A DNA stretch of 64,000 nucleotides from Fistulifera solaris. Taxonomy: Eukaryota > Bacillariophyta > Bacillariophyceae > Naviculales > Stauroneidaceae. The notes under the pieces were generated by a model. That model did no database searches and was not told the DNA's origin. It worked only from the letters and a program-made list of their open reading frames with translations. Location: contig AP026125.1 of NCBI GenBank assembly GCA_030295235.1, forward strand, positions 496,001 to 560,000, given 5' to 3'. The position numbers and the translations under genes are program-made. Of this stretch, positions 13,301 through 38,770 are shown one piece after another (position 1 is the stretch's first letter; each line of letters begins with the position of its first letter).

Positions 13301-15565
13301 CAAATGCCATGGAAATATTACAACTTCATTCAAAACGCAACTATTTGCGTCGAAAAGCATCCGTATCGTCGAGTGCCATTTTCACTATGATGGTAAAGTG
13401 TTGGTTGTACGCGACCGCGACTAAATTTCAGTCACATCAACATAAGGAAACGATGTTGAAACGCCACCAAAGTTGTCCACAAACAAAAGCGCGAAGTGTA
13501 TAATCAAATGCCGTGGAAATACAAATATATGAACTAACTATCATCTTCATTCGAAACGCAACTATTTGCGTCGAAAAGCATCCGTATCGTCGAGTGCCAT
13601 TTTCACTATCATGGTAAAGTGTTGGTTGTACGCGGTCGCAACTAATTTTCAGTCACGATCAACATAAGGAAACGATGTTGAAACGCCACCAAAGTTGTCC
13701 ACAAACAAAAGCGCGAAGTGTATAGTCAAATGCCATGGACAATACCAATATATGAACTAACTATCATCTTCATTCAAAACGCAACTATTTGCGTCGAAAA
13801 GCGTCCGTATCGTCGAGTGCCATTTTCACTATGATGGTAAAGTGTTGGTTGTACGCGACCGCGACTAATTTTCAGTCACGATCAACATAAGGAAACGATG
13901 TTGAAACGCCACCAAAGTTGTCCAAAAACAAAAGCGCGAAGTGTATAGTCAAATGCCATGGAACTACCAATGTATGAACTAACTATCATCTTCATTCGAA
14001 ACGCAACTATTTGCGTCGAAAAGCATCCGTATCGTCGAGTGCCATTTTCACTATCATGGTAAAGTGTTGGTTGTACGCGACCGCAACTAATTTTCAGTCA
14101 CGATCAACATAAGGAAACGATGTTGAAACGCCACCAAAGTTGTCCACAAACAAAAGCGCGAAGTGTATAATCAAATGCCATGGACAATACCAATATATGA
14201 ACTAACTATCATCTTCATTCAAAACGCGACTATTTGCGTCGAAAAGCGTCCGTATCGTCGAGTGCCATTTTCACTATGATGGTAAAGTGTTGGTTGTACG
14301 CGGTCGCAACTAATTTTCAGTCACGATCAACATAAGGAAACGATGTTGAAACGCCACCAAAGTTGTCCACAAACAAAAGCGCGAAGTGTATAGTCAAATG
14401 CCATTGAACTACCAATATATGAACTAACTATCAACTTCATTCGAAACGCAACTATTTGCGTCGAAAAGCGTCCGTATCGTCGAGTGCCATTTTCACTATG
14501 ATGGTAAAGTGTTGGTTGTACGCGACCGCAACTAATTTTCAGTCACGATCAACATAAGGAAACGATGTTGAAAACGCCACCAAAGTTGTCCACAAACAAA
14601 AGCGCGAAGTGTATAATCAAATGCCATGGACAATACCAATATATGAACTAACTATCATCTTCATTCAAAACGCGACTATTTGCGTCGAAAAGCGTCCGTA
14701 TCGTCGAGTGCCATTTTCACTATGATGGTAAAGTGTTGGTTGTACGCGACCGCGACTAAATTTCAGTCACATCAACATAAGGAAACGATGTTGAAACGCC
14801 ACCAAAGTTGTCCACAAACAAAAGCGCGAAGTGTATAATCAAATGCCGTGGAAATACAAATATATGAACTAACTATCATCTTCATTCGAAACGCGACTAT
14901 TTGCGTCGAAAAGCATCCGTATCGTCGAGTGCCATTTTCACTATGATGGTAAAGTGTTGGTTGTACGCGACCGCAACTAATTTTCAGTCACGATCAACAT
15001 AAGGAAACGATGTTGAAACGCCACCAAAGCTGTCCACAAACAGAAGCGCGAAGTGTATAATCAAATGCCATGGACAATACCAATATATGAACTAACTATC
15101 ATCTTCATTCGAAACGCAACTATTTGCGTCGAAAAGCGTCCGTATCGTCGAGTGCCATTTTCACTATGATGGTAAAGTGTTGGTTGTACGCGACCGCGAC
15201 TAATTTTCAGTCACATCAACATAAGGAAACGATGTTGAAACGCCACCAAAGTTGTCCACAAACAAAAGCGCGAAGTGTATAATCAAATGCCGTGGAAATA
15301 CAAATATATGAACTAACTATCATCTTCATTCGAAACGCAACTATTTGCGTCGAAAAGCATCCGTATCGTCGAGTTCCATTTTCACTATGAGGGTAAAGTG
15401 TTGGTTGTACGCGGTCGCGACTAATTTTCAGTCACGATCAACATAAGGAAACGATGTTGAAACGCCACCAAAGTTGTCCACAAACAAAAGCGCGAAGTGT
15501 ATAATCAAATGCCATAAAAATACCAATATATGAACTAACTATCATCTTCATTCGAAACGCAACTA
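13301..15565 (+). repeat. Satellite array A: ten tandem units of about 222 bp
   Basis: The word CAAATGCC recurs at 13301, 13505, 13727, 13950, 14172, 14395, 14618, 14840, 15062, 15284 and 15506. The spacing is 222-223 bp except for the first unit (204 bp). Units differ at a few positions only (ATGATGG/ATCATGG, GCGACCGC/GCGGTCGC, CCATGG/CCGTGG). No unit has a conserved ORF. The part from TATTTGCGTCGAAAAGC to TTTCAGTCACGATC is homologous to the core of satellite B. Confidence 0.95.
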
Positions 15566-15765
15566 CGATCCATAACAACGAGGTCCAAAGTTTCTTGTAG
15601 TTGATGCACATAATTTCTATGAGATGAAAACACCCAGTCCAGAATTTCTGGAACATTCACAGAATTTCTGGAACATCCACTGAATTTCTGTAGGACGAGA
15701 TCGCGACTTTCAAAATTCCTGGAAACGTACACAGCAACGCTGTTCGTTGAGAAACGCACCGTTGA
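15566..15765 (+). repeat. Palindromic repeat family C, right flank of the satellite
   Basis: Resumes with ACGATCCATAACAACGAGG and two CCAGAATTTCTGG-type copies, matching the 19.1-20.2 kb family. Array A therefore sits inside this family rather than next to it. Confidence 0.8.
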
Positions 15766-15894
15766 CCATTGATTTATTGAGGATATAATAAAGCGGAAGG
15801 CAATGAGATATTAATTAATTGTGCTTCTGCGTTTACCTTAACTAGCAATACATCACTTTCTTCCTTTCATCGACAATTAAAGAGCACAAGAAAG

Positions 15895-16308
15895 ATGGGT
15901 ACCGATAATCCAGGCAACATAATGGCTTCTGCCGTGGACGCAGAAGTCACTAAATTCAAAGTGCTGCAGCAAGAAATCACCAAATTTCGATCTGATCTTC
16001 AATTCGTTTTAGGTCAGAGGACAGAAAATGAAATGGTACAACAAGAATTGGATTTAATTGGGAACGATGGAATTGTGTATAAACGAATTGGCCCGGTACT
16101 TCTTCAACAGGAGGTAGACGAGGCTCGACAAACGGTGCAAAAGCGATTGGAATTCATTCAATCGGAAATTGACAAAATGGAATCAAAGATTGCCGCAAAA
16201 GAAAAAGAAGGAACCGAGATTGCTGTCAAAGTACAGCAAATGCAATCACAACTACAGCAGGTGACGGCGGAGGCAGTACGCGCCATTGCCGAACAACACG
16301 GAAAATAA
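15895..16308 (+). CDS. PFDN6: Prefoldin subunit 6
   Basis: Intact 137-residue single exon. It is a beta-class prefoldin: an N-terminal helix (FKVLQQEITKFRSDLQFVLGQRTENEMVQQEL), a central hairpin with the characteristic VYKRIGPVLLQQEVDEA, and a C-terminal helix with heptads to the stop. Prefoldin is a hexameric cytosolic chaperone that hands actin and tubulin to the CCT chaperonin. The length matches the family (about 125-140). It is convergent with the Noc2 gene, the stops being 45 bp apart. Confidence 0.92.
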   Translation: MGTDNPGNIMASAVDAEVTKFKVLQQEITKFRSDLQFVLGQRTENEMVQQELDLIGNDGIVYKRIGPVLLQQEVDEARQTVQKRLEFIQSEIDKMESKIAAKEKEGTEIAVKVQQMQSQLQQVTAEAVRAIAEQHGK

Positions 16309-16352
16309 AATTATACAGAGTTTACAAGCTGTGGATGTAATCATTCTTATAA

Positions 16353-18784
16353 TTAATCTGAATCATCATCGGACCAATCCACTCCTTCTTGAACAGCATC
16401 ATCCTCTTCCAAGGCTTTCTCGTCAATTGGTGCTTGCGGCGTCTTCGTCTTTTTCGACTTTTGCTTCTTTTTCGTCTTCGGCTTTTGCGTCGGAGCATCG
16501 CCTTGATCGTCATCTTCATCGCTTTCTTCTGCCTTCGTGGGTCGTTTCTTTTCTTCGGCTACCCGATTTTCTTTCATTCGCTCGTCGAGTAATTTCTGCT
16601 CCCTCTGAACCGACTCGTCATGACGGTCTCTCATTGTCTTCATCGATGTTGGACGAAGACATTCTAGTTGCTGAATGTCCTTGGGTGATTCTTGTAGTTT
16701 TTGCCGGGCTTGTACAGCAAACGCCGAATACTTTTCACATGTTTCGATACAGCCCTTGGCCATGGCACGCCATCTCGGTTGACGCGACGATTCCTTGGAA
16801 AAGGTACGAAGACGCTGGATAATGCGACTCGAGTATTCGGGAAAACCGGCTGAGAAACGGTACAGTTCAATGTCGCGATTCAGCAAGACAAAGAAGGCAT
16901 TCATACTGGCCTGCATTTGCTCGTGAGTCCGTAACGCATCTTCTTTGGATCCAAGCTTCAATATCAATTCCATTTGAGGCGGATTTTCAGCCTTCTTCGT
17001 TTTCTTCGGATGCAAATACCACTCTTTCAAGTCGAGCGACTCTAACAGAAGGGCACTTGTCGGAATGAAGGTCTGTGAAAATGCGGCTAATTGCTGAAGA
17101 AGCCGAATGCAATGAAACCGATACGGTAAGTTTCGTGTGGGAGAAGGAGTGAAGCGAAGGGTGCCCATAATAACTTCGGTCAAGGGATAAATCAAGGAGC
17201 GCATCAATGAATCTTCTTCAATTGTAGAGTCGCATAAGACAGCAACCCAGAGCTTCAGGCAGTGAAGATATTGCCAATGATAAACTTGTTGCATGGCTTC
17301 CTTCGTCTTCTTGTGCATCGCCGTACGAAGAAGCAAAGCCAATTGACGAATGTACACAAATGCATGCTGATACGATGAGTGGTGATCCAAGCTGTACAAT
17401 TCACAAAGGCAGTTGCCCATAAAGGTCAGAGTAGGAAGGACGGAAGAAACAGAGGCTCCTGTCCCAAATTTGGCTCGCTTGGCATAGGCAAGGTACGTCT
17501 TTTTCAATATATCTTCGATAAACGGAAATGGCTGAGTCAAAGCTAATTGCCGAATGCGGAGAAATGCATTCAATCGCACAACTTGGTACTTTTCAGAAGT
17601 ATCCAGTGGTGCTGACCAGAGTGCAGTCAAGCTCTTGAGCATGGCCGACGCTAATCGGGGAAAGGGCGTTAAGTAGCGATTCAACTTCGCCAATGCTTTC
17701 AACACAAACACTAGTAAATCCGGTTCCTTCGCTTCTGACATGACGTGAAGTGTTGATTTGAAAAACGACTGGATTATAAGGCGGAGTTGAGGCCACCTTT
17801 CGGCTTTTTCAAGAAGTTTGGGGTTTAAAGGCTTATCGTCTTCGACGGTCGCTTCTTTGTCATCTTTTGCAGGAATTATGTCGTTCGTTTCCTCCTTTTG
17901 TTCGGAGCGCAGCAAATGATAATGAAATTCTTCGTGAATTCTATTCAAACACAAGAGCATCAGTTCATCAAATATCTTCGACGAGTCGATAATGTAAGGG
18001 CTACTCCCTTTGTCCTCGTCGGCTGCATCGGAAAGATGACAAGCAGCCTTGTACGCCACCACCAGCTTCTTGAGACTTTTCAATCCGTGGGACTTAAATG
18101 TTCCTTTTCCAAGGACGCAAGGACACTAGCAGTGAGATGAACTTTGTCATTTCCTCCCTCGTCGTCGCCATCATCATCTTTCATGTCGTCGTCGTCATCG
18201 TCGTCATCGCCAAACTCCAACAGCGACTCCTCATTTTCCTTCAAAAATTCATGAAACTCAGGATCTGCCTCTTTCATTTTAGCCATTTCAATTTTCATTC
18301 GCTCTTCAGCCGCATCAAGGTCTTCGTCGTCGCTATCGTCACTTTCTGACGAGTCACTCTGCTGATTCTTTGACTGCTTCAACCCTTTCTTTCCGGATTT
18401 ATCTTCCGCCATAAAATCGTCCTCACTCTCCGAATCGCTTGCGGAGTCCTCATTTTCCGAGTCATCGGCAGCGTTTGACTTCTTCTTGTCCAACTTGTGT
18501 AGAGCATCACCGGCAACATCGCCCGGCAGGGTGTCAGTAAGCTTTTCGAAAAAGCTATCAATATCCAAGTCCCCCAAATTATTGTCACCAAGAAAATCAT
18601 TGGGTCTAGACTGATTTCCCAAGGGCTGCTGTTCCGACGCTGTCGACTTTTCCGTACGGCCCGCCGTGCTCTTTTTCTGGCGTTTTCGTGGTTTGCCTTT
18701 CGTGGCCATACCGCCTCGTTCCAGTCGACGCTTTACCCCTCCGGACGCCTGAAACTTGCGTTCTCGCTTAGTTGGTTTCCCCAT
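16353..18784 (-). CDS. NOC2: Nucleolar complex protein 2 (Noc2)
   Basis: About 810 residues. The basic N-terminus (MGKPTKRERKFQASGGVKRR) is followed by acidic Ser/Asp/Glu stretches, then the Noc2 domain with LKSLKKLVVAYKAACHLSD, helical repeats and the conserved middle (LPYRFHCIRLLQQLA, LLLESLDLKEWYLHPKK). A Lys/Glu-rich tail ends at DDDSD. Noc2 pairs with Noc1 or Noc3 to export and mature pre-60S particles. The frame breaks at 18094-18095: TTTAAGTCC needs one more A to read EHLKSHGLKSLKKL, the conserved entry to the domain. The two frames are otherwise intact and there is no room for an intron. Confidence 0.9.
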
Positions 18785-19109
18785 GATTTCGCAAATTAAT
18801 TGTCACTAAACCTTTTGCCGACTGGGAAAATAGATTTTTTTGGTTGGCTTTGAAAGAAAAACTCCACCCGTGTACCGACGGACACCAGACGATCACTTTA
18901 CTCTACATCTAAAGTGTAAGATTACTTTTCCACGACTGAGTACCAGTCATGAATCATGGTACTGTCAACTAATCGCTAGCTTTGCAACCTCTGTTAAAGG
19001 ACGCGAATCAGCACTAAGCATTATCAATTCACGCCTCGTATTTGCACCGATAAGCCGTGGGGAATGTTGTGCATACACACTCCCTCGGCCCACAACTTAA
19101 TGAGAGCGT
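18785..19109. other. Noc2 upstream region
   Basis: 325 bp without a supported ORF. It contains the single-copy relic of the satellite core module at 18901-18958. Confidence 0.5.
18901..18958 (+). repeat. Dispersed copy of the satellite core module
   Basis: Reads CTTTAC..AAAGTGTAAGATTAC, then CACGACTGAGTACCAGTCATGA and ATCATG. This matches in order the AAAGTGTTGGTTTACG, CACGACTGCATTTCAGTCATGA and GTCATG words of satellite B. Confidence 0.65.
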
Positions 19110-20180
19110 CAATGACTGTGAATTATTTCTGGAACATCAACAGAATTTCTGTATGATGAGATCGCGATTTCCAGATTATCTGGAATTCGCACTGAAACGC
19201 TGTTTGTTGACAAACACCGAGTCCAAACTTTCTGGAAATAACATGGAACTTGTATGATCCATACCTAGTAGCAAGGATGTCGAACGTTTCTTGAACGTCC
19301 ACATAATTTCTGTGATATGAAAACACTTGGTCCAGAATTTCTGGACCATCCGCAGAATTTCTGTATGATGAGATCGCGGTTTCCAGAATTTCTGGAATTT
19401 ACTGTGAAACGCTGTTTGTTGAAAAATAGCGTGTTTTGTATGATCCATTACAACGAGGTCGAACGTTCCCATAATTTCTGTGCGATGAAATCACCTGGTC
19501 CAGAATTTCTGTATGATGAGATCGCGTTTTCCAGAATTTCTGGAATTTACTGTGAAATGCTGTTTGTTGAAAATACCGTGTCCAGACTTTCTGGAACTTG
19601 CACGGAATCCTTGAATGATCTTAACAACGAGGTCCAACGTTCCTTGAACGTGCACATATTTTCTGTGAAATGAAAACACTTGGTCCAGAATTTCTGGACC
19701 ATTCACAGAATTTCTGTATGATGAGATCGCGGTTTCCAGAATTTCTGGAATACTGTGAAACGCTGTTTGTTGAAAATACCGTGTCCAGACTTTCTATAAT
19801 TTGCACGGAATCCTTGTATGGCCCATTATAGCAAGGTCCGACGTTTCACGAACGTCCACATAATTTCTGTGAGATGAAAACACGTGGTCCAGAATTTCTG
19901 GACCATTCTCAGAACTTCTGTATGATGATGAGATGGCGGTTTCCAGAATTTCTGGAATTGAGACAGAAACGCTGTTTATTGAAATATCCCGTATCCAGAC
20001 TTTCGGGAATTTGCACGGAATCCTTGTATGGCCCATTATACTGTAACGAGGTCCGACGTTTCTTTAACTTCCTCATAATTTCTGTGAGATGAAAACACGT
20101 GGTCCAGAATTTCTGGACCTTCCACAGAATTTCTCTATGATGAGATCGCGTTTTCCAGAATTTCTGGAATTTTTACTCAG
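19110..20180 (+). repeat. Palindromic repeat family C, five to six degenerate tandem units
   Basis: Units of about 173-213 bp start near 19271, 19451, 19624, 19831 and 20044 at the word CAACGAGGTC or its variants. Each carries two kinds of palindrome: GGTCCAGAATTTCTGGACC (9+1+9) and TTCCAGAATTTCTGGAA (8+1+8). A decayed third copy reads GTCCAGACTTTCTGGAA. ORFs across it are short and by-products of the repeat. Confidence 0.9.
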
Positions 20181-20356
20181 TTCACACTCAACTAACTCTT
20201 TCTTCATCATGCTCCTAATTTGAACATATTTATTGCTTATTATTATCAATTAGGCACACACACACAGCCCCTTCACTGAAAGAAGCTTTTTTCGCTATTT
20301 CACCGGAAGATTTGTTTGCCCAATTCGTCGCGAGTGAGTGAAGAAAAGCACATAAA

Positions 20357-21502
20357 ATGAGACATCGATGTCGGAAGCTTGCCGCTTTTCTTATTCTACC
20401 TACCGGCGTGGTATCATCATTCGCTGTGCCGGTGTATTTTGATTCAACCAATCATTTCCATCGCGACTTACAGTACCATCCCGAGCAACCAGAACGCATT
20501 GCGGCGTGTCTTCGGGAATTGGAAAAACATCATCAGAGGAATCCTGGAACCGTTGACCTAATTGATGTTGCAGAAGCACCTTCTGGTTCATTTTCGAATA
20601 CTTCGCACACACACGATGGGTTTTCGGCGGCGGAATTATCTCACGTGGAAGCGATGCTGCTCAAAGTTCACACCGAAGACACTGTTGTGCAGTTGAAACA
20701 GCGATGCCACCGATCCAAGCAGAAACGACTGGACGAAGGAAAACCCGCATTGGGTCATATCGGCTATTTGGATTCAGATACTTACGTGACTACAGAAACA
20801 TACGACGTTTGCTTGCGAGCGACGGCGGCATGGTTTCGTGCGGCAGATTTTGTTTGGAAGAATGGCGGTGGTGCCATGGCCCTGACCCGACCACCGGGAC
20901 ACCACGCTACCCAGAGCGAATCAAATGGATTCTGTCTTTTCAATTTTGCCGCTGCTTCCGTTGCTCACATATTAGAAAGAAATCCGAGCGCCAAAGTGAG
21001 TGTGCTGGATTGGGATGTCCATTACGGTCAAGGGGTAGCCAATATTTTGATGGACGAACCACGGGCACGGTATGTCTCAATCCATCAGCATGGCGCGTTT
21101 CCTTTCATGGGACAAGTCCTCAAGACCCATGGAGAGCATAACAATGTGCTAACTATACCCATATCGCCCGATACAACATGGAACAGTGGATACAAAGATC
21201 GCTTCGAAATGGCCCTCGATTTTATTTGCAAACAAAATGAGTGGATACCGGACATTGTCATCATCTGCGGTGGTTATGATGCTCTCAAAAGCGACGAATT
21301 AGCCAGCGTGGATCTAAACTCTGAAGACTATGGAACAATGACGGAATTGCTGATTCGACATTTAAAGGCAAGTGCAGGGAGGGAGGTTCCAAAGATTATG
21401 GTAGGACTAGAAGGAGGGTATCAACTGAGTCCTACAGCCGCTGGTGGGAATTTACAGGACGCAATCATTGAAACAGTTAAAGCAATTTCTAGTATCAAGT
21501 AG
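20357..21502 (+). CDS. Plastid-targeted class II histone-deacetylase-like zinc amidohydrolase
   Basis: Intact, 381 residues. The N-terminus MRHRCRKLAAFLILPTGVVS is a signal peptide, with cleavage before SFAVP or FAVP matching the diatom ASAFAP plastid motif. The arginase/deacetylase fold follows: YHPEQPERI, RPPGHHA (catalytic His pair), DWDVHYGQG (zinc ligands Asp and His), GGYDAL (zinc Asp) and GLEGGYQ (catalytic-region Tyr). The family removes acetyl groups from lysines or acetylpolyamines. Targeting suggests a plastid protein or small-molecule substrate rather than histones, but the substrate is not readable from the sequence. The 5' side abuts the palindromic repeat block. Confidence 0.88.
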   Translation: MRHRCRKLAAFLILPTGVVSSFAVPVYFDSTNHFHRDLQYHPEQPERIAACLRELEKHHQRNPGTVDLIDVAEAPSGSFSNTSHTHDGFSAAELSHVEAMLLKVHTEDTVVQLKQRCHRSKQKRLDEGKPALGHIGYLDSDTYVTTETYDVCLRATAAWFRAADFVWKNGGGAMALTRPPGHHATQSESNGFCLFNFAAASVAHILERNPSAKVSVLDWDVHYGQGVANILMDEPRARYVSIHQHGAFPFMGQVLKTHGEHNNVLTIPISPDTTWNSGYKDRFEMALDFICKQNEWIPDIVIICGGYDALKSDELASVDLNSEDYGTMTELLIRHLKASAGREVPKIMVGLEGGYQLSPTAAGGNLQDAIIETVKAISSIK

Positions 21503-21721
21503 CTTGCGGTCACACATTTTGCAACTGAGGTTTGAGTGTTTTTTTCCTTTGAAATGCGGCTCCCTTAGTAGGTACAGTACCGGTGCGAACGCGGTTGATT
21601 TTTAGGGCGACACGCGATGCGAGATGCGATGCAGGCGACAAACTTCCTTCAATTGCGATCAATAATAATATCTTTTGCGATTTCTGTCAGCTGTAAAAAG
21701 TCTTTATCCATCGTAACAAAA

Positions 21722-23334
21722 ATGGATTCTAGCGATTCGTCTTTGTCGACCGACAAAAGAAGCGACGGAAGTCATCAAAGAGTCGAAAGCGGGAGGAGCG
21801 CAAGCCGTGGAAGAGGCGACGATCAGATTACGACGATGATTCTACTTCTTCCAGTGACGATGACAGTTCCTATCGAAGATACCGAAAGAGAGAGAGAAAA
21901 GAGCGAAAGAAACACAAGAAGGACAAAAAGAAAGTGAAGAAAGAAAAGAAGAGGGCTAGTAGAGACGAAGACGACTCCAGCTGTGGGGAGTCCGACCCTT
22001 TACACAGAAATTATGAGCTAGCGGATGCTCTTTTGAACATGCTGGAAGGCCACCCTGCGCTAGTTGAAGACTTTCCTATTATGTTGATTCGATTAGCAAG
22101 CGGAACTACATTTGATCTGAGCCAAATGTCGGACCAAGATGCCGCCCATTGCCTTGCACAAGTCTTCACCAAGTTACAACCATTCGGCGTGACGAAAGAT
22201 CATGCCGGTGCCTGGTGTTGGGAAGGAGGCAGTCGCTCATCGAATCCTACTCACAACGAGCAAATCGTTCTGGTGAAGCTGGTACGCGCCATGTTGGATC
22301 AAATAGGTTTCACTATGCAGGCAATTGAGCGTCACGATAATCCGGATATTCCTTCCGCCGCCGAAAGGGTTCAGACCAACAACACAACGGAAGAGATAAC
22401 TTACATGACAGCAGGTACATTACGAGAATTTAAGCCAGAACTGGCGCAGGAGCTAGCGGGCCTGTGTCGAATGATATTAGACGGGGAAAGTATTGCTCTG
22501 GATGGTCTCGAGGATGATCGTCTTCGCAACGCTCTTGAGTATATTTTCAAGGAATGCGGACTAGAGAAATTAGAGATGGAAAATGACGACAAAGAAGACG
22601 ACGACAGTGTTGCATTTGGTTATGGTCTCCCACAGGCTGCTAACGAAGAGTCAAAAGCGAGAATACGTTGTGTGATGCAAACCTGCGAGGAAACAGCGCA
22701 AAAACCTATTGTTAAAGGCCCTTTGAAGCCACCGAGTTCCTACACAAACCAGGTGGATGCCCTCTATGATAATTCCGGGTCTTCCGACGAAGAAGGTCCT
22801 GCCATGGTAGGATCCGCACGACAAAACAAGGGTCTATCAAAAGACCTCGTGGCCGCCCAAGCCGCTTTACGCAGTCGCCAGCTCGCGAATGCAAAACAAG
22901 GCATTGATGTCTCCACCGCGGAAGCAATGGAGGGACAATCACGAGAAGAATGGATGGTCGTACCGGGTAAACAATTCGATTTTTTAAGCGCCGTCAAGGC
23001 GGGCAAACCTATGACAAGTCGAAAATTCGGCGCCCAAAGCAAAGTAGATTTAGCAAAGCAAGGCGAATCGATTCATCCGTCGATACAAGCCGAGATCCAG
23101 GCCATCAAAGAAGCCCACGAAGAGTCGCGTGGTCCTTCACTGATGGAGCAGCATCGGGAGAGAAAGTTACAAGAACAGGCAGAAGCAGCCGCTTCTGGAA
23201 AGAGCGAGTCTTGGAAATGGAATCGCGAAAAAGATCTCGATTCGGGAAGACGTGTCGACAAAGACGCCTTGGGTATGATTCTGGGTAGTGCTGGCACTGA
23301 ATTGAAGTCCAAATTTCACGGCGGCTTTGGTTGA
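21722..23334 (+). CDS. GPALPP1-like protein (DUF3752 C-terminal domain)
   Basis: About 537 residues. The N-terminus (MDSSDSSLSTDKKKRRKSS after repair) is basic and Ser/Asp-rich, like splicing-associated proteins. A predicted globular part of about 130 residues follows (NYELADALLNMLEGHPALVEDF, AWCWEGGSRSSNPTHNEQ) that I do not recognise. The C-terminal 150 residues match DUF3752: SREEWMVVPGKQFDFL, SWKWNREKDLDSGRRVDKDALGMIL and ELKSKFHGGF. The Gly-Pro motif appears as DEEGPAMVG. The family is nuclear and poorly characterised. The frame breaks at the A-run 21755-21758: one extra A joins the ATG frame to the long ORF. Confidence 0.72.
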
Positions 23335-28224: not shown

Positions 28225-28263
28225 AAAGTTGCAATGTCTCGTGACTGAAATCGGCAGTCATGA
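28225..28263 (+). repeat. Short dispersed copy of the CAGTCATGA module
   Basis: Reads CTCGTGACTGAAATCGGCAGTCATGA, an inverted GACTG..CAGTC pair followed by ATGA as in satellite B. It lacks the AAAGTGT upstream part. Confidence 0.5.
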
Positions 28264-28470
28264 AAACGGACAATACTTATTTATTCGGTACTATAGTATA
28301 CTTTAACCTTGAGCTAAACGATCCGAGAGATTAAGCCTTTGACGAACCCAAAATATCCTACAAAAGAGCCCAACAATGCCATCCATAAACGATAGAGAAA
28401 ACAGAAGTTTTACAAAAATACGGACTTGAGACGCACAAGGGACAATAGAAAGTGGGGCCTTGAGTTAGTT

Positions 28471-28532
28471 TACGCGTGACTGAGTTGGAATTCAGTCGTG
28501 ATAAAAAAAGTAGGCTACATTTTGGATCACAG
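28471..28532 (-). repeat. Dispersed copy of the satellite core module (inverted)
   Basis: On the minus strand it reads CCAAAATGTAGCCTAC, then TCACGACTGAATTCC and CTCAGTCACG. These are the same ordered words as AAAGTGT..TTAC..CACGACTG..CAGTCA in the two satellites. Confidence 0.6.
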
Positions 28533-28677
28533 TGCATTTCGTACGCGGCAAAAAAATGGCGGGAAATAAAAGAAGGCGGATCGAATCGAATGAATGTCAA
28601 CGACGAGTGTTATAATAAAAATATCATTTATAAATACAATTGGGGATATCGTTACGAAGAAAACTGTTATCAGTTCA

Positions 28678-29661
28678 ATGTTTTCTGCTGCTTTCAATCA
28701 CCAGACGGTGATTTCCGGCACCAGGCTTTGTTGTCGCAACCTGTCGACCAAGCCCCTCCGAGCGTATCCGGTGTACACTGTCTACGGTGCTGATTGCTAC
28801 TTCAACCTCAAAGTAATTTTACCCAAGTTTCGGACACGCAACAATGTGCTCTCAACGGATGGCTTTTCGCAATATGGCAGTCTACTTTTGAATGGGTCCT
28901 CGCGGAAGCGACGGTAAGTTCGGCTTACTGTCGATCCGCTTTTCGAATCAATGCTTCGGCTAGATCTCACTTTTAAATTGTCTCACTGAATATATATATA
29001 TGTACAGGAAAAGGCATTCCCGATAAAAGTCTACGTTTCGCTCTTGCTCCCCAAGAGGCTGGATTGCTGATCGATCAGCAACGGAATGAAACGGTCGAAT
29101 TTTCGCGGACCGGCTTTCCCCCGAATGTCGTCGACAAAGTCTTTCGGGTCAGTCCACACGAAGCCGGGGCCTTCCAATTTTTGATCGATTATGAAAATGA
29201 AGGCCGTGGTGGTCAGAGTCCCTCGGATCGTCCCGACTTGGAAGGTATAGCTCCGCTCGGAATCGTGCTTCAGCGCGGCGAGTACGTGGTTCTCCGCGAG
29301 CTGATGCGGAATTCAATTCCCACGATAGCCAACTGGGACTATATGCTGAAAATGCAAGTCGAATCTGCAATCACTGAAGCTTCCAAAAGTCCTTTCCAGA
29401 CGATAGCTCGCCGTATGAAGTGCCTTTTTAGTTGGGTGACAAAAATAATGAAATACTTCAATGTCGCGTTTTACTCGCAATGCTTCTTTTCAATATTTTC
29501 AGATCTATCATTACCATCTGTTTGTTGCGCGATTTGTAAAATATATCAGAATTTTCATAAAAAGCTAATAGTATGGAGTAGTTCCTTTTATTCAATTCTT
29601 CTTCTCGTTCTAGTTTCTAGAAATCGTCGAAACCCGATGCGATACTGAGCGGAGATACTAA
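28678..29661 (+). CDS. Whirly-family ssDNA-binding protein, organelle-targeted
   Basis: Exon 1 (28678-28913) encodes a presequence (MFSAAFNHQ to CCRNLSTKP) and the first Whirly strands (YTVYGADCYFNLKVILPKFR). Exon 2 (29008-29412) has the family core SLRFALAPQEAGLLI and ends with GEYVVLRELMRNSIPTIANWD. A third exon 29621-29661 is suggested by GTATGA..TTCTAG borders but is uncertain. Whirly proteins bind single-stranded DNA in plastids and mitochondria and stabilise organelle genomes. Exon 1 and exon 2 do not join in frame. A frame change near 28885 gives SLLLEWVLAEA, closer to the family than SLLLNGSSRKR, but a further one-base discrepancy remains at the junction. ATG 28594 is an alternative start. 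Confidence 0.65.
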
Positions 29662-29829
29662 AATAGTAGAGACGACAAAGATTCAAGATATTCAACACGG
29701 GGGGAAGGAAGTTAAAATTGTGCCTCTCAGTACAAGTTTCTACGTGGAGCCTACGGCGAGGCAGAATTTTAACGTCGTCTCCGGGATTCTTCACGGTCAT
29801 CACAATACCTGGTAGGACGTGTGCTCGCG
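29662..29829. other. Open but unassigned exon-like stretch
   Basis: From 29621 to about 29816 one frame is open and protein-like (DTKIVETTKIQDIQHGG, KIVPLSTSFYVEPTARQNF). It could be a longer Whirly 3' exon or a 5' exon of the following MscS gene. I cannot decide which. Confidence 0.35.
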
Positions 29830-31363
29830 TGCCTCTTCGTTGCCTCAATAAAATGCCATCATCGTTTTATTACAACGCACGAACTTTTACAAAAAGCGTT
29901 CGTTGATTGCAAAGCAACATGCGAGAGAGATCTCAGCTGGGAATACCACAACAACAAGATGTGGAAAAGGGAGTCGCGTTCAAGTAATGAAGAAGGACAT
30001 CTTCTTTTGGCGGGCCAAATCATTTCACGGCTAGCTCGATTTTCCGAAATTTTCTCGCGTCGCAACGAAATTTTGGAAACTCTTGTAAATACAATTGAAA
30101 TGGGTGACTTGCTTGTACTTGTAGCGCTCGGGTGGCTTACTATTCCGGTTGTACGAGTCATTTATACATTTTATTACGCGCAGTACGACCAAGCAACGAA
30201 AGTGGTGTCTTTGAAGAAGCCTATCAACGTTCAACCCATCAAAACGGAAGATCAGCACGACGCTCCATCGTCACAAAACCCACAACAAGAGGCCACGGAC
30301 GTCTTTTTTCTCATCCACGCCATTTTACATCGCTAACTTGGCTACAGAAGTATTCCAGCGAGCTTGCCTTGTCTATTTAATCGATTGTCTGGTGATCGTT
30401 GCGGACATTGTCGACCCCCGGCTGGATATTGCGCATCACGAGCTGAGTCTCAAGTTTGCCAAAATAATATACTCTGTATGGGCTGCTACTCGACTGATGG
30501 CTTTCAAGAGATACTTACTTTGTTTGGCGGCCAAGCGTCCGGAGACAAAATTGGGCAAGGTTGGCCTCTACGATCGCATATTGGACATTTTGATTCTGTT
30601 CTGCCTCATTCTTGCGATATTGGACATAATTCACGTAGAAGTAGGCCCGGGATTGGCTTCTCTTTTTGCTTTTGGAGGCGTGGGAACGCTGGTTTTGACA
30701 CTGGCTTCGAAGGATCTGGCGCATCAACTTGTCTGTGGAGTGGTGGTGTCGACTTCGGAAAATTTTTATGTAGGCGACCATATTCGACTGGGTAATGATA
30801 CACGAGGAGCAATCGATTACATCGGATGGTTGTATACGGATGTTCGTGGTAAGTCAGTGGCAAGCGTTTGCAAATAACACGCTCCCTCATTTGGAGCAGC
30901 TTCTCATTCGCCATTCTGTCGTCTTGTCTATCAAGGATACGATGAAGTTACCACCCGCATACCAAATGAGCAGTTTGCAAATCGAAGAATATGTAATATT
31001 TCACGGCATAACCGTTGTCAAGTGAAGCAGTTGCTTCGTGTGAAACATTCCGATTACAAGAAGATACCTGCTTTTTGCACCGACGTTTTGCAAGAAATTA
31101 AGCTTCAATGCCCGGAAGTGATAGCCGATGGATCCCGTCCTTTTCGAGCTTTCCTTAAGGATATCAAGAGTGACCATTTGTCTGTTGTAGTCGACGCTCG
31201 GTTCTACCTCCCCGCCATCGGGAAACGGTACGATAACAATCGAAACAAAGTATTGTTGATCATTTGCCAAGTTCTTGAAAAGCATGAAATTTCTTTGGCA
31301 ATACCGTCTTTTGCAGCTGGAAGCTTGGACGATGGGCAGCCAACGACCCTTCTAGACGATTGA
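29830..31363 (+). CDS. MscS-family mechanosensitive ion channel
   Basis: The 3' exon is 30936-31363 and the intron 30849-30935 (87 nt). The 5' end is uncertain: the frame is open upstream of the first ATG (29959), so an upstream exon may exist. Hydrophobic helices are at MGDLLVLVALGWLTIPVVRVIY, RACLVYLIDCLVIVADI and LILFCLILAILDI. The pore-lining helix and beta domain are GPGLASLFAFGGVGTLVLTLASKD, then VGDHIRLGN and TRIPNEQFANRRICNISR read across the splice. These channels open on membrane tension and release osmolytes. The frame breaks at the T-run 30306-30311: one T fewer gives DVFFSSTPFYIANLATEVFQ. The gene lies directly downstream of Whirly. Confidence 0.82.
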
Positions 31364-31614
31364 CGATTGAACAGCTTGTACACACTGTGTCATAAATACA
31401 ATCAATGTTTCGATTTAGGCTTCCTGCCTTTTGCTGTAAACAACTGCTAGTATTTGATGAACAAGTCAGCAATGAGCAACAACGGTACCGAAGGAGTTTT
31501 AGTTTGAGATGTGAATATTCGAATAGACAGGTGCCGTGATTGAACTAAATTCAATGCATGTACTTGTAAGCGTTTCGTCGTCTCTCGTCTCTCTAGAAAA
31601 AACCAAAAAGTAGC
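31364..31614. other. Spacer between MscS gene and tRNA
   Basis: About 250 bp, with no gene or repeat seen. Confidence 0.5.
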
Positions 31615-31703
31615 ACCGAATGTGGGGCTTGAACCCACGACCACACGATTTCACTAGGGATAAGTCTAAGAGTCGTGCGCTCTACCGACTGAGCAAATTC
31701 GGC
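31615..31703 (-). tRNA. tRNA-Lys (anticodon CTT) with a 17-nt intron
   Basis: Read on the minus strand. The acceptor GCCGAAT pairs with ATTCGGT, the D-arm is GCTC..GAGC, the anticodon stem CACGA/TCGTG, and the loop C-T-CTT-A. A 17-nt insertion follows base 37 (GACTTATCCCTAGTGAA). The variable loop is TGGTC and the T-arm GTGGG-TTCAAGC-CCCAC. The 72 mature bases plus 17 intron bases fill the 89-bp span exactly. The A box (GCTCAGTCGGTAG) and B box (GGGTTCAAGCC) are intact. CCA is not encoded, as expected for a nuclear gene. Confidence 0.95.
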
Positions 31704-31927
31704 TAATAATTTCGCACAACGAATTTATGCTACACAAACAAATAGATAATGAAAAGTGCAGAGCTAAAAAACACTTTGCTTGCTCAATGCGGCTACGTTG
31801 TGTTTACATCAGATAACACAAGTTTTCTTAGCTCATTAAAGTTCAGTGTGGAGCTCTTGTGTTACCGAGGGAACGTTTTCTTGAACCATCTCCACTTCCG
31901 CGGGGTGTGACTCATCGTATCTGGGCC

Positions 31928-33366
31928 TCACTTTTTGATTCGCGGAAGTACTGGTTCAATCATTTCCCAAGGTGTTTGCTTCTCTGGCGGGACGAAACCT
32001 AGCGATACAAACCAATCGAGTGGAGAATAATGGGGTACATTGTAGTTGGCAAGTAGCTCTTGTCCCACCTTGAGTGCTTTCCTTCTTCCGTGTCGAAAGC
32101 TCCGGACGACAAATGTTCCGCTATCATCTTCGGTTGCATCAATAAAGTGACCATTTTCTATCCGCTCTCTTCCTGTCAATTCAATGAATCCAGCCGCACT
32201 TTCATCATGATTGATTTGATCAACCATGGGAATAAGACGAAGCGTTCCATGTTTCTCCGATCCCGCCGTCGCCCGCGATGCGACTTGACAGAGGGCCCAG
32301 GCAATGTTGTCGGCTACGGATTTGTCCGAAGGTGTTTGAATGTAGGGTCCGTAATCTTTCGTTAACGCTTCCACGATCGTTTCCGCATAGGCCGTAGCTC
32401 GCGACAACTCTTCCGACCATCCTTCCGTCGGAACACCGAGTTCTTCGCGCAAGACGGCGAGCGCGTCGAGCATATAGGGTCGTAGATTTCTCGAATAGCC
32501 ACAAGACGGTTCCGGAGGCAATGATGCTATGTACGGCATCCATCGCGAATATCGACCCACTCCGCGTTCATGAGCCAAAAGAGAACCAAAATGATGGCAT
32601 CGTCCAACTCCGACATGCCGGCTTTGACTTGCACCTCTGCAGGAATGAGTGGCAATAGCACTTCCAGCGCTTTTGTTCGAGTCATTTGATAATTCAGAGG
32701 CACGCGTATGAGAATCTCTTCCTGTTTGAACTTGGGCTCCGTCGGTAAAGGATACGTTACGTTGTTCTCCTTGTAAAGCCAACGTTCGTTTTTCACACGT
32801 TCTTTCTCTTCCGCACGCCCCGGCAGACACCCCTTTTGACACTCGTGCCATCCATTCCGGACCATACCGATCCCACGTGCCGCCCCACAGGGTGCAGGAA
32901 CCAAAAATCCCAAATCGGGATGGACAAATCCGCCGGGTTCTCGGACAATCGCTTCCCGCAATACGGCAAACACGCGCGGATGCGCCGGATTCGATGCATA
33001 GAGTTCCACTTCCATATCACGTTGCATACGAGCCACCCAATATCCTATTCGGTATTGTACTTCTTCCCAGGCATCCGTTTCGAAGGAAAGAAGACGAAAC
33101 GAAGTGGTCGACCGCAGACGATTCGCGAGTTCTTGTCGCCACGGTTTGACTTCGGAAGAAAATTCCAGCCACCCCGTCCCGATCAAAAATCCAAATAAAA
33201 GTCCTGTCAATATGCATCCACCAACCCAGAGATAAGCTCGACGATCTTGGGCCAACCATTGTCGTAATGTAATAGTCGGTGCGCGGTGTTCGTCGTCGGT
33301 TGTGGGTGATAGCGACGACTTGGTGGGTGATTCGTTGCTGCTTTTTGGCTTTTTATTCTTTCCCAT
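31928..33366 (-). CDS. Membrane-anchored SET-domain protein (Rubisco-LSMT-like class)
   Basis: About 479 residues. The cytosolic-looking N-terminus (Lys/Ser-rich) is followed by one transmembrane helix, YLWVGGCILTGLLFGFLIG. A unique region with two pairs of cysteines leads to the split-SET-like part: RVPLNYQMTRTKAL, ERGVGRYSRWMPYIASLPPEP, then the catalytic-core motif MVDQINHDESA and ANYNVPHYSPLDWFVSLGFVPP. Enzymes of this class methylate lysines of non-histone proteins. The frame breaks at the A-run 32577-32580: one extra base gives VLFLAHERGVGRYSRW, the expected continuation. The TM anchor is unusual for the family. Confidence 0.83.
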
Positions 33367-33740
33367 CTCGTGAGTAAAAAGAATTATACAGCTAGTACTT
33401 ATAATAGTGTGCTAAATCCGTTTTTGTTGATAAGCAAGGGATAATGAAGGCAATGAAGGCATTTGCTTTCCTTGTCATCGTTCTGCTCGATAGTGCTGCC
33501 CGTGCAAAAGCCTGCACGACAATACCCCGAGTAATTATTTTCTCCCTCCACATTCCGATCGACGCACCGGTACTTGTACAGATACGGATCCGGTACCGTA
33601 TCGATAATATAGAGGCCCCGCATACGTAATCTCTGTGTGCTCTGTAACGAAATCGACGGACTCTAGATTAGAGCGATGATGCAGTTCGTCGACTTTAATC
33701 TATGCAAAAACAACCAAAACATCAAAATTTATATACTGTA
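33367..33740. other. Spacer between convergent/divergent genes with a small ORF candidate
   Basis: 374 bp. Apart from the small signal-peptide ORF at 33444-33629, which also has an open cysteine-rich frame on the opposite strand, I see no gene. Confidence 0.4.
33444..33629 (+). CDS. Possible small secreted peptide
   Basis: A 61-codon ORF starting MKAMKAFAFLVIVLLDSA, then ARAKA-C, an excellent signal peptide with a Sec-type cleavage site. The mature part is only about 38 residues (ILE/ARG-rich) and unrecognised. The opposite strand is also open, so this may be chance. Confidence 0.3.
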   Translation: MKAMKAFAFLVIVLLDSAARAKACTTIPRVIIFSLHIPIDAPVLVQIRIRYRIDNIEAPHT

Positions 33741-35273
33741 TCACTTAGATCGCTGCCGGACTGCTTCTAAAAATACTTTCGTCATGTGTTCAATGTCCTT
33801 GGCAGTTTCAACTGGATTCCGCTTCCCTGTAATACCTGTAGCCCGTCCCACCCACACGGGTGTCATCAGGCACGTGTCCGAAAACTCATTATGGGAGATA
33901 TCGGGGATACTTTTACATGCTGAAATACCCGAATCGGTACCTAATCGCTTTCTGGCATACATCTCTTCGAGGGCATCGGATCCAGCCCACTTCTTATCGC
34001 GCCATTCTTGAGAAAACAAGATCAACATATCTTTCTCATGAATCGAACCTTCATCACCCGCTGGCACAAAGCCCTCATATCCACCCGTACCTCCGTGCCA
34101 GGAATGGTCGAAATCTTGCAACAACGTCGGCGAAAGCAACGAGTGTCGTGCATCGTCCGGCATCCAATCGACCGCTGGTTCGTGTGCGACAACGGCAGTC
34201 ACTAAATCCGGTCGTCGTTTCCCCGCCGTCAAAGCCGTTGCTCCTCCAAAGGAATGCCCCATAAAGAACGTTTCCGATTTCGATAAACGTCCTCGGAATG
34301 AAATACCGAGACCGGGAATGTCGTGTTGATCCATGTGGTGAATTGCCTCGACGGCCGCAATGAATTCCTGCACGCGATGATCGGTCCGGCGCCTTCGTTC
34401 TTTCACGTAATCGAGGTGCTTCTCTTCTAAAAGCAATTTCGCGAGTTCAAAATCGTAATGCAGTTCCGTGCCGTTGGACAAGGCCACGACGGGCGCACTC
34501 CGATCTTGATGCGTCAACACGAGTACCACATATCCCTGCGAGGCCAGTGCCATGGTCTGATACGAGTAAACATCGGCCGTTCCACCCAGACCGTGGGAAA
34601 ATACCACGATCGGTAAACGTCGGTCCAGTGGAAGCAGCGTCGCGTTCGGTTTGGCTGGAATGGACGCCAACTTCCAGTGGTGCAACATCCAACCGTGCGA
34701 CTGGAGTGGTGGCGGAGCCCCAAATTGCATCATTTTTCGACAATACTCGTCCGCCAGAGAAGGATTTAAATAAGGATACTGTCCCGGAGGATCCAGTGTG
34801 GGAAAGAATAATTTGACGGGCAATTCGGAATGCGATGTGCACGTCGTGTTGTCGTCGGAAAAGTCGACCGGTAAATGAAACTCTCGAATTCCCACCCGGT
34901 ACGGTCCATCGGGTGATGGTATTTGGACAGCTGGTAGGAGTATGCAGAGGACGGCGGCTAATACAACGAACGAAAAACCCAAGAAGCCCAACAATCCTCG
35001 GCTCCAGCCGAAGCGCGAGAAAAGTGGTATCCGCCGCAGCAATTGAATGACAATGAAAGGAATCATTGGCAAACTTATACTCCATCGTCCCGTCGGTCCA
35101 CATGTGAACAATAAAAACCCAAAAGAAAAGAGTAGTACGTAAAGATTCGATGTCGTACGAATGCTGGTGAAGTTCACGTACAGCATGCACAAAAGCGTGT
35201 GCAGATCAATCGCAATGTGCCGAGGGATCGGCTGCAATCCACCAATCATTTTGGAAACCAGAGAAACAATCAT
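33741..35273 (-). CDS. Platelet-activating-factor acetylhydrolase-like lipase, membrane-anchored
   Basis: Intact, 510 residues. The N-terminal 115 residues hold three or four hydrophobic segments (NLYVLLFSFGFLLFT, LLGFLGFSFVVLAAVLCILL). The alpha/beta-hydrolase domain follows: oxyanion-region VVFSHGLGGTADVYSYQTMA, nucleophile elbow MGHSFGGATAL (Ser), Asp in AVDWMPD, and His in ISHNEFSD. This spacing fits the plasma/type II PAF-AH family, which hydrolyses short or oxidised acyl chains at sn-2 of phospholipids. The membrane anchor suggests action at a membrane surface. No frame breaks are seen. Confidence 0.85.
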   Translation of the reverse strand: MIVSLVSKMIGGLQPIPRHIAIDLHTLLCMLYVNFTSIRTTSNLYVLLFSFGFLLFTCGPTGRWSISLPMIPFIVIQLLRRIPLFSRFGWSRGLLGFLGFSFVVLAAVLCILLPAVQIPSPDGPYRVGIREFHLPVDFSDDNTTCTSHSELPVKLFFPTLDPPGQYPYLNPSLADEYCRKMMQFGAPPPLQSHGWMLHHWKLASIPAKPNATLLPLDRRLPIVVFSHGLGGTADVYSYQTMALASQGYVVLVLTHQDRSAPVVALSNGTELHYDFELAKLLLEEKHLDYVKERRRRTDHRVQEFIAAVEAIHHMDQHDIPGLGISFRGRLSKSETFFMGHSFGGATALTAGKRRPDLVTAVVAHEPAVDWMPDDARHSLLSPTLLQDFDHSWHGGTGGYEGFVPAGDEGSIHEKDMLILFSQEWRDKKWAGSDALEEMYARKRLGTDSGISACKSIPDISHNEFSDTCLMTPVWVGRATGITGKRNPVETAKDIEHMTKVFLEAVRQRSK

Positions 35274-35409
35274 GTTCGTGATCTTATCAGTGAATGTTGT
35301 GAAAACGAATGAATCATAGTTGTGTGAGCAACAAGAAAAGAATTCGTCTTGGTTCCCTTGCTATCATTTTCCATCGTCGTCATCGATCGAGGGCGAAGAA
35401 TGAGTTCTC

Positions 35410-35790
35410 ACGTTTCCCGAAAATCTGGGGGTGTGTTGCTTTGACGTGTCCCGAAAATCTGGGTGAGTGCTGTTGTCACGTGTCCCGACAATCTGGGTGA
35501 GGTGTTGTTCTCCGTGTCTCGAAAATCTGGGCGAGTGCTGTTCTCACGTTTCCCGAAAATCTGGGGAAGTGTTGTTTTCTTTGTCCCGAAAATCTGGGCG
35601 AGTGCTGTTCTCACGTTTCCCGAAAATCTGGGGGTGCGTTGTTTTTTTTTTAAAAAAAACCATAATCTGGGCGATTGTTGTTGTCAAGTGTCCCGAAGAT
35701 CTGGGTATCTGTTGTTTTCACATGTCCCAAAAAAATTTTGCGGGTGTGTTGTTTTCACGTGTCCCGAAAATCTGGGCGAGTGTTGTTTTC
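35410..35790 (+). repeat. Minisatellite D, about 11 units of 34 bp
   Basis: The unit is CCCGAAAATCTGGG followed by a variable GTG/TTGTT spacer and CACGTGTC. Copies start near 35416, 35450, 35483, 35517 and 35551 and continue to about 35770. The unit has the half-palindrome CCCGA..TCTGGG. It ends where satellite B begins, at GCTCTTGCGAAACG. Confidence 0.9.
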
Positions 35791-38770
35791 ATGGCTCTTG
35801 CGAAACGTTGTGTGCCTTATTATTTTACTACTATGGACCCGTGGACTGCATTTCAGTCATGAATTAATATTCTTTTGCGACGGATGTTACCTACAAGTCG
35901 TTCGATCGCCCAGTTTCTTGAGGTTTATTTGTCACTGTTGCAGTAAAACAGTCTTCAACAGTGTTGGCATTATAAGTCACTAGCCGCCTTCGGCGTCTAT
36001 TCGAGGGCTTTTTTTCGTTCTCGCCCTTCCCGCAAGCGGGGGGCTCGATCCCCGGAGATAGCGTCACACCCGTGATTTGGACACCCGGGAGCGCGTTACG
36101 TTACGTGACACACACACACACGGACACAGCGCGCTATTATAAATAGATAGATAGATTATATTTACGTCGAAAAGCCTTGCGAAACGTTGTGTGCCTTTAT
36201 TTTACTATATGGACCCAAAGTGTTGGTTTACGAAGACCACGACTGCATTTCAGTCACGAGTCATGAATTTAATACTGAGTATAATATTCTTTCGAGCGAC
36301 GGATGTTACCTACAAGTCGTTAAATCGCCCAGTTTCTTGGGCTTTATTTGTCACTGTTGCAGTAAAACAGTCTTCAACAGTGTTGGCATTAAAAGTCATT
36401 ATATTTACGTCGCAGAGCCTTGCGAAACGTTGTGTGCCTTATTTTACTATGGACCCAAAATGTTGGTTTGAATCAATATTCTTTCGAGCGACGGATGTTA
36501 CCTACAAGTCGTTAAATCGCCCAGTTTCCTGAACTTTATTTGTCACTGTTGCAGTAAAACAGTCTTCAACAGGGTTGGCATTATAAGTCATTATATTTAC
36601 GTCGAAGAGCCTTGCGAAACGTTGTGTGCCTTATTTTACTATGGACCCAAAATGTTGGTTTGAATCAATATTCTTTCGAGCGACGGATGTTACCTACAAG
36701 TCGTTAAATCGCCCAGTTTCCTGAACTTTATTTGTCACTGTTGCAGTAAAACAGTCTTCAACAGGGTTGGCATTATAAGTCATTATATTTACGTCGAAGA
36801 GCCTTGCGAAACGTTGTGTGCCTTATTTTACTATGGACCCAAAGTGTTGGTTTACGGAGACAACGACTGCATTTCAGTCATGAGTCATGAATTTTTCAAA
36901 AAATATAATATTCTTTCGAGCGACGGATGTTACATACAAGTCGTTAAATCGCCCAGTTTCTTGGGCTTTATTTGTCACTGTTGCAAAGAAATTTTTTCAA
37001 TTTTACTCATTGGATTTACGTCGCAGAGCCTTGCGAAACGTTGTGTGCCTTATTTTACTATGGACCCAAAGTGTTTGTTTACGGAGACAACGACTGCATT
37101 TCAGTCATGAGTCATGAATCAATATTCTTGCGACGGATGTTACCTACAAGTCGTTCGATCGCCCAGTTTCTTGAGCTTTATTTGTCACTGTTGCAGTAAA
37201 ACAGTCTTCAACAGAGTTGGCATTATAAGTCATCATATTTACGTCGAAGAGCCTTGCGAAACGTTGTGTGCCTTTATTTTACTATGGACCCAAAGTGTTG
37301 GTTTACGGAGACCACGACTGCATTTCTGTCGTGAGTCATGAATTTTTCAAAAAATATAATATTCTTTCGAGCGACGGATGTTACCTACAAGTCGTTAAAT
37401 CGCCCAGTTTCCTGAGCTTTATTTGTCACTGTTGCAGTTAAACAGTCTTCAACAGTGTTGGCATTATAAGTCATTATATTTACGTCGAAAAGCCTTGCGA
37501 AACGTTGAGGGCCTTATTTTACTATGGACCCAAAGTGTTGGTTTACGAAGACCACGACTGCATTTCAGTCATGAGTCATGAATCAATATTCTTTCGAGCG
37601 ACGGATGTTACCTACAAGTCGTTAAATCGCCCAGATTCTTGGGCTTTATTTGTCATTGTTGCAAAGAAATTTTTTCAATTTTACTCATTAGATTTACGTC
37701 CGAAGAGCCTTGCGAAACGTTGTGTGCCTTTATTTTACTATGGACCCAAAGTGTTTGTTTACGGAGACCACGACTGCATTTCAGTCATGAGTCATGAATT
37801 TTTCAAAAATATAATATTCTTTCGAGCGACGGATGTTACCTACAAGTCGTTAAATCGCCCAGTTTCCTGAACTTTATTTGTCACTGTTGCAGTAAAACAG
37901 TCTTCAACAGGGTTGGCATTATAAGTCATTATATTTACGTCGAAGAGCCTTGCGAAACGTTGTGTGCCTTTATTTTACTATGGACCCAAAGTGTTGGTTT
38001 ACGGAGACCACGACTGCATTTCAGTCATGAGTCATGAATCAATATTCTTTCGAGCGACGGATGTTACCTACAAGTCGTTAAATCGCCCAGATTCTTGGGC
38101 TTTATTTGTCATTGTTGCAAAGAAATTTTTTCAATTTTACTCATTAGATTTACGTCGAAGAGCCTTGCGAAACGTTGTGTGCCTTTATTTTACTATGGAC
38201 CCAAAGTGTTTGTTTACGGAGACCACGACTGCATTTCAGTCATGAGTCATGAATTTTTCAAAAAATATAATATTCTTTCGAGCGACGGATGTTACCTACA
38301 AGTCGTTAAATCGCCCAGTTTCCTGAACTTTATTTGTCACTGTTGCAGTAAAACAGTCTTCAACAGGGTTGGCATTATAAGTCATTATATTTACGTCGAA
38401 GAGCCTTGCGAAACGTTGTGTGCCTTTATTTTACTATGGACTTAAAATGTTGGTTTACGGAGACCACGACTGCATTTCAGTCATGAGTCATGAATTTTTT
38501 TATAAAAAATATAATATTCTTTCGAGCGACGGATGTTACCTACAAGTCGTTAAATCGCCCAGTTTCTTGAGCTTTATTTGTCACTGTTGCAGTAAAACAG
38601 TCTTCATCAGCGTTGTCATTATACGTCATTATTTTTACGTCGAAGAGTCTTGCGAAACGTTGTGTGCCCTATTTTTCTATGGACTATGGACCCAAAGTGT
38701 TTGTTTACGGAGACCACGACTACATTTTAGTCATGAATCAATATTCTTTCGAGCGACGGGTTACCAGTAA
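35790..38770 (+). repeat. Satellite array B: about 12 units of 192-244 bp
   Basis: CTTGCGAAACGTTG recurs at 35798, 36176, 36419, 36611, 36803, 37030, 37253, 37494, 37709, 37949, 38164, 38405 and 38649. Spacings fall into classes near 192, 215-227 and 241-244 bp. The long unit contains AAAGTGTTGGTTTACGGAG, CACGACTGCATTTCAGTCATGA and GCGACGGATGTTACCTACAA. The 215-bp form replaces the GCAGTAAAACAGTC part by GCAAAGAAATTTTTTC, and the 192-bp form lacks the GTTTACGGAG-to-CATGAG part. Apparent ORFs such as those beginning MDPKC or MRALF are by-products. Confidence 0.93.
35981..36163 (+). mobile_element. SINE-like insertion with tRNA B-box-like motif and ATAG tail
   Basis: Interrupts the first full unit of satellite B between ATTATAAGTCA and TTATATTTACG, which are adjacent in other units. 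It holds TAGCCGCCTTCGGCG (weak A-box likeness), GGGGCTCGATCCCCGG (one mismatch or two from the tRNA B box GGTTCGATTCC), a CACACACA run, and ends in ATAGATAGATAG. No target duplication longer than 2-3 bp is evident. The assignment is tentative. Confidence 0.45.

Follow-up and report, generated by a model that had tools for sequence, protein, structure and literature searches.

Two tandem arrays of Fistulifera solaris share a near-palindromic core with a satellite family dispersed through the diatom's genome

Satellite DNA usually diverges fast, and in the satellites that carry a CENP-B box a short, conserved and presumably protein-bound box lies within fast-changing units of about nucleosome-repeat length. 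Satellites dispersed in euchromatin are represented by the X-linked 1.688 repeats of Drosophila and the TCAST-like elements of Tribolium (PMC5788526, PMC3411249, PMC10048060), and the oyster Crassostrea gigas is reported to have satellite-like repeats that are carried by Helentrons (PMC7492417). Our subject is a window of 64,000 nucleotides from the diatom Fistulifera solaris (positions 496001-560000 of contig AP026125.1, here C5, in an assembly of 51.7 Mb and 61 contigs), which holds two satellite arrays, A and B, whose units have a core in common. On balance we favour the reading that both arrays are young expansions of a dispersed satellite family, and that the core would be a selected, dimer-type putative protein-binding site.

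The two arrays were described in a first-pass annotation of this stretch, with units of 222 bp in A and 192-244 bp in B, and unit starts and Tandem Repeats Finder (TRF) agree with that description. TRF called array A at 13324-15565, and a query with tiled units extends its bounds to 13294-15565; for array B the TRF rows run from 36283 to 38740 and the profile matches from about 35798 to 38793. When the consensuses of A (222 bp) and B (233 bp) are aligned, positions 1-99 of A match positions 1-103 of B with a score of 65, and every motif of the ordered series that the annotation had listed falls inside this alignment. The shuffle control that it had called for confirms the observation: shuffles preserving dinucleotides score 17.2 on average and 28 at best, and none of 2000 reaches 65. 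The remaining halves score 10, a value equalled by 393 of 1000 shuffles, and are therefore unrelated. The initial impression of two unrelated-looking satellites is thus correct outside the core, but it does not extend to their descent, for satellite B covers the whole length of an older unit found elsewhere in the genome and satellite A covers its core part, columns 17-119 of 216. From this restricted match, A has evidently lost or replaced the rest of the old unit.

The genome-wide search for further arrays that the annotation had recommended reveals a dispersed family larger than first described. There are at least 193 A-type and at least 120 B-type matches across many contigs (with the best 40 candidates scored), and the family takes the form of short head-to-tail arrays throughout the genome, with a spacing mostly of 192-243 bp. 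A profile built from the B unit was run on 45 sequences, namely the window, the matching piece of a homoeologous contig (C6) and the fetched loci L026-L038 and L045-L074; it found 194 matches at E <=1e-3, and none at E 10 on the reversed sequences. Many of the dispersed copies that appear single are short, decayed arrays. Among the spacings at old loci, 27 of 30 measure 202-237 bp (the others being 340, 426 and a spacing of 4 that reflects two hits to one copy), and neighbouring old matches no more than 700 bp apart lie on the same strand in 32 of 32 cases, one pair being two hits to one copy; this count covers L045-L074, the window and C6 at E 1e-3, a threshold that drops five weaker hits on the opposite strand in L046, L053 and L061. 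The family thus consists of head-to-tail units at many unlinked places, as in a dispersed short-array satellite. For array A of the window, units are also more alike within the array than between arrays: they are 95-100% identical to one window unit (n=10), while the units listed elsewhere are 71-95% identical to it.

Within the unit, one element stands out. The 22-bp near-palindrome CRYGACTGCATTTCAGTCRYGA has 962 matches at no more than one mismatch in the 51.7-Mb genome, counting both strands and the copies within arrays, and its reversed control has none; these matches are partly non-independent, since the 100 listed correspond to some 76 places by hand count. When three further 22-mers are taken from the old consensus and matched to the core in degeneracy, with four two-fold positions each, they have 36, 17 and 17 matches (reversed controls 0), so that the core is in roughly 27 to 57 fold excess over other blocks of the same unit. 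Conservation was measured in 23 distinct copies, drawn from 21 of the loci L045-L074 and all lacking an exact core. The majority base reaches a frequency of 0.88 in ACTATAG and of 0.87 both in the 22-mer and in a second block, AAAGTGT; the columns next to these have 0.56 and 0.57, and those further downstream 0.73. The 22-mer itself is kept unevenly, with agreement at 170 of 184 bases (0.92) for the left half-site, at 161 of 181 (0.89) for the right one and at 85 of 114 (0.75) for the centre, where the looseness is mainly due to positions 9 and 11. With a gap of 8-16 bases allowed and array copies included, AAAGTGT precedes one exact form of the core in 69 matches, and the gap is 13 or 14 in 62 of them (14 in 50, 13 in 12, 15 in three, 12 in two and 16 in two), although the spacer is diverse in sequence. 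The whole can be written as a composite site of ACTATRG, a few bases, AAAGTGT, 13-14 bases and CAYGACTG-N5-CAGTCAYGA. Because the half-sites are kept above the centre and AAAGTGT lies at a nearly fixed distance, we infer a composite site that would be bound by protein through a dimeric part. One exact form of the 22-mer has no occurrence in IMG/VR, and a degenerate form occurs at six places in 257 billion prokaryotic bases, where about seven were estimated by chance.

The age of this core can be judged from the second chromosome set. Fistulifera solaris is described as an allodiploid diatom with 42 homoeologous chromosome pairs (PMC5935921), and positions 466001-536000 of C6 are collinear with the window, with ten long blocks at 85-89% identity, three short and weaker matches (68-80%) around genes of the tetratricopeptide repeat (TPR) type, and a Noc2-like protein 95% identical between the two; two such collinear sets would fit an allodiploid genome. 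Neither array has a counterpart there. Between anchors, the place of array A measures about 160 bp on C6 against about 2.8 kb on C5, and that of array B about 450 bp against about 6.5 kb (B together with the TPR-type open reading frames, ORFs), and TRF found no array like A or B on the matching C6 pieces. What C6 does have at the place of array A is an old copy of the core, which runs on the opposite strand (18884-18820 of the piece). Four sites with old copies, five copies in all, occupy matching places on C5 and C6, and there the core blocks are identical at 183 of 223 positions (82%), compared with 866 of 1393 (62%) in the remaining intergenic stretch (Fisher p 2.5e-9, the columns not being fully independent). 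On this comparison the core predates the divergence of the two chromosome sets and, at these sites, is slower to change than its surroundings. Satellite A looks specific to one set, since among the matches listed A-type arrays occupy 25 places on odd-numbered contigs (C1-C17) and two on even-numbered ones by hand count, the odd/even pairing having been checked for C5/C6 and one C1/C2 place (L053/L062). The repeated amplification of one module that the first-pass annotation had proposed is therefore borne out: the module is present genome-wide, it predates the split, and A and B are missing from the homoeologous contig.

Several observations weigh against a selected binding site in a regular head-to-tail family. 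The three comparison blocks come from the consensus built here, and the core pattern may suit its copies better than these blocks suit theirs. Selection of the 23 copies relied on a core-containing profile and on loci retrieved through a core match, which tilts the count towards core conservation, and the requirement that they lack an exact core tilts it the other way. Within the 22-mer, position 20 of the right half is loose (C or T, the commonest base in 14 of 22), and the centre positions 10, 12 and 13 are well kept (19, 18 and 20 of 23). The core blocks behind the difference between 82 and 62% were picked by eye on the C5 window sequence. In the 14 A-type arrays conservation of the first 100 columns does not significantly exceed that of the remaining unit, with 83 of 222 circular shifts doing equally well. 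L032 and L035, which the strand count does not cover, contain head-to-head copies, and no significant preference for gene orientation or context appears among 20 dispersed loci and 15 young arrays.

The old unit occupies intergenic DNA, in short head-to-tail arrays that comprise one to four decayed copies. As to how such a family might arise and persist, we propose that the near-palindrome would be the target of a sequence-specific protein that binds as a dimer and makes an additional contact towards AAAGTGT, and that selection on this binding would preserve the core as the other parts of the unit drift. Local tandem expansion would multiply the core, unequal exchange or gene conversion may homogenise each array, and dispersal could proceed via reinsertion of repeat DNA. 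Arrays would thereby multiply sites at roughly one per nucleosome repeat, probably serving local chromatin organisation or gene regulation. Going further is tentative, but it is possible that an undescribed chromosomal protein, perhaps specific to diatoms, recognises the bipartite site at many hundreds of places at least, that arrays multiply its sites and organise intergenic chromatin, and that each parental set evolves array sequences of its own around this common site.

The alternative that comes nearest to the earlier suggestion of a mobile-element end, which we consider rather unlikely, is that the unit descends from a non-autonomous mobile element, either as its fossil or as its repeat, with the near-palindrome a transposase-binding or nicking site that was needed for its spread. 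Dispersal across the genome on both strands and the abundance of the core relative to other unit blocks would both follow, and the window holds, elsewhere, a weak DUF6570 fragment under the curated cut-off, a domain associated with Helitrons. One A-type array (L036:1812-5161) is flanked on both sides by direct repeats of about 403 bp that are 91.6% identical, and satellite-like repeats are carried by the Helentrons of oyster (PMC7492417). An element with fixed ends is nevertheless disfavoured, because 28 flanks of up to 600 bp from 14 A-type arrays give a single match between loci, 35 bp at 86%, and the arrays end at many positions of the unit, although 8 of the 14 5' ends fall at positions 1-45 under a tiled query (the 5' end counted for L035 is a stray copy outside its array). 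The old copies, moreover, are themselves tandem and stay at matching places with better-kept core blocks. Array A of the window also lies between direct repeats, those of a minisatellite with CCAGAATTTCTGG, and together with the L036 array this would point to recombination between repeats as the route of insertion or expansion. Joint movement with that minisatellite was considered and set aside, as a motif scan finds it at only L035 of 13 other A-type loci. Of the two suggestions first made for the module, a protein-binding sequence would thus be the better fit, given the half-sites kept above their centre and the second block at a nearly fixed distance, and a mobile-element end has less support, given the varied array ends and the near-absence of common flanks.

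Were the core instead to act on adjacent genes as a promoter or enhancer element, with the arrays as multiplied promoters, which we think improbable, the position of copies in gene-rich intergenic DNA would be expected. Gene context was taken from ORF-based gene models, which allowed 20 of 30 dispersed loci to be classified, eight further single copies in L027, L031, L032, L033, L035 and L037 standing outside the counts. No convergent gap is occupied among these 20 (eight divergent gaps and 12 tandem ones) or among nine old loci of the window and C6 (four matching pairs and one more), all of which lie in divergent gaps; but convergent gaps make up just seven of 59 in the background, beside 16 divergent and 36 tandem. 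Copies in tandem gaps are on the same strand in eight cases and the opposite strand in four, while the 15 young arrays point either way (five divergent, six tandem with one same and five opposite, two convergent and two unclassified), so that no promoter-type orientation can be claimed. That 17 of 20 loci have a downstream ORF on the same strand arises automatically in divergent gaps, and with the eight-to-four split in tandem gaps and the one-to-five split of the young arrays this led us to reject a promoter as the principal explanation. The most abundant motif of a promoter study in F. solaris, TABASTA, differs from the core (PMC5935921). A neutral satellite, its likeness owed to common origin and homogenisation and its core without function, would account for the lack of significantly better conservation of the core within the A family, and dispersed short satellite arrays are common elsewhere (PMC10048060); we nonetheless regard it as very improbable in view of the 27 to 57 fold excess, the half-site pattern, the nearly fixed AAAGTGT spacing despite a diverse spacer and the homoeologous conservation of the core blocks. 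Least credible of all is that the units are genes, each encoding a structured non-coding RNA. In favour of this are the length of the unit and a short hairpin that the core might form, but neither array has an Rfam match above the gathering score, and permissive scans give one weak hit per array, far under that score. A consensus fold of 22 copies reaches -1.02 kcal/mol with four pairs, none of the four compensatory, which is a lack of support and not a disproof as the pairs hardly vary; a scan of the whole window with Rfam found just a tRNA at 31614-31703, and with the lack of compensatory pairs this candidate was rejected.

Positions of the arrays, cores, old copies and a second repeat family in the window
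Feature	Position	Strand	Basis and remarks
Old degenerate unit copy	12768..12871	-	Profile; counterpart at the matching C6 place
Family with palindromic core CCAGAATTTCTGGAA	13007-13290, 15638-15740, 19170-20170		Motif copies
Satellite A array	13294..15565	+	10 unit starts 221-224 bp apart, plus partial ends; not on homoeologous contig
First full common core, satellite A	13342..13440	+	Period ~222 bp; last profile match ends 15446
Old degenerate copy	18896..18962	+	Profile; counterpart on C6
Weak partial copy beside 18896..18962	19018..19071	+	Profile, E 0.037
Old degenerate copy	28232..28271	-	Profile; counterpart on C6
Old degenerate copy, same strand as 28232..28271	28475..28549	-	Profile; counterpart on C6
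Satellite B first unit, truncated	35797..35951	+	Profile matches
Satellite B array	36154..38793	+	12 unit starts 192-244 bp apart
Example of the 22-bp near-palindromic core, exact CACGACTGCATTTCAGTCACGA	36238..36259	+	Motif match
Weak core-only match	40509..40535	+	Profile, E 0.012
Old degenerate copy	48105..48273	+	Profile; counterpart on C6

Other features lie near the arrays. Array B is interrupted by a foreign segment at about 35980-36150; by eye only, this segment of some 170 bp resembles a short interspersed nuclear element, it matched no tRNA family, and a copy of it (89% over 185 bp) lies beside a core copy in L063. Directly before array B, at 35404-35791, TRF finds a 34-bp minisatellite with CCCGAAAATCTGGG, which by eye resembles the CCAGAATTTCTGG core. 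The second dispersed family in the table has 1298 exact copies of its palindromic core genome-wide (reversed control 0), and C6 largely lacks the block at 18960-20285. Two TPR-type ORFs with weak Pfam matches follow array B at 38894-41689; a single stretch of C6, oriented the other way, is related to both of them. A prefoldin-like gene is located at 15895. The segment at 1513-3151 is present on C5 only, being largely missing on C6, and combines a 53-bp tandem duplication with the weak DUF6570 match, which is under the curated cut-off. Positions 33557-34558 of the C6 piece, about 1 kb, stand opposite 31472-31597 of the window, about 125 bp. The tRNA (minus strand) scores 54.7 bits with Rfam and is not called by ARAGORN; it perhaps contains an intron.

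The two parental chromosome sets appear to have one old composite site in common, while the young arrays around that site differ. Their comparison within one cell makes it testable whether arrays persist by multiplying a putative protein-binding site, and if they do, the family would offer an entry point to an abundant DNA-binding activity in the intergenic regions of diatoms. An editing method for F. solaris has been published (PMC13276009). A literature search, judged on titles and the openings of abstracts, found no such satellite described in diatoms among the papers listed.

Among known systems, the family resembles satellites of the 1.688 and TCAST type in that short head-to-tail arrays as well as isolated units are scattered over gene-rich regions. 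It differs from them in that a 22-bp near-palindrome and a second block at a nearly fixed distance stand out, and in that no long array of the family is present among the matches listed. The Helentron repeats of Crassostrea gigas likewise form short arrays of related monomers dispersed genome-wide; there the arrays lie inside elements with flanking modules, whereas the 14 A-type arrays examined here have hardly any flanking sequence in common and end at varied positions, unlike the central repeats of a Helitron or Helentron. With CENP-B box satellites the likeness is a short conserved box within an otherwise variable unit of about nucleosome-repeat length. PF03221, the CENP-B-type domain, has no match in this genome, nor in any of 14 controls. 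The sequence of the box is different, and here several small arrays are strung along a contig, as on C3, where six A-type places are found among the matches listed.

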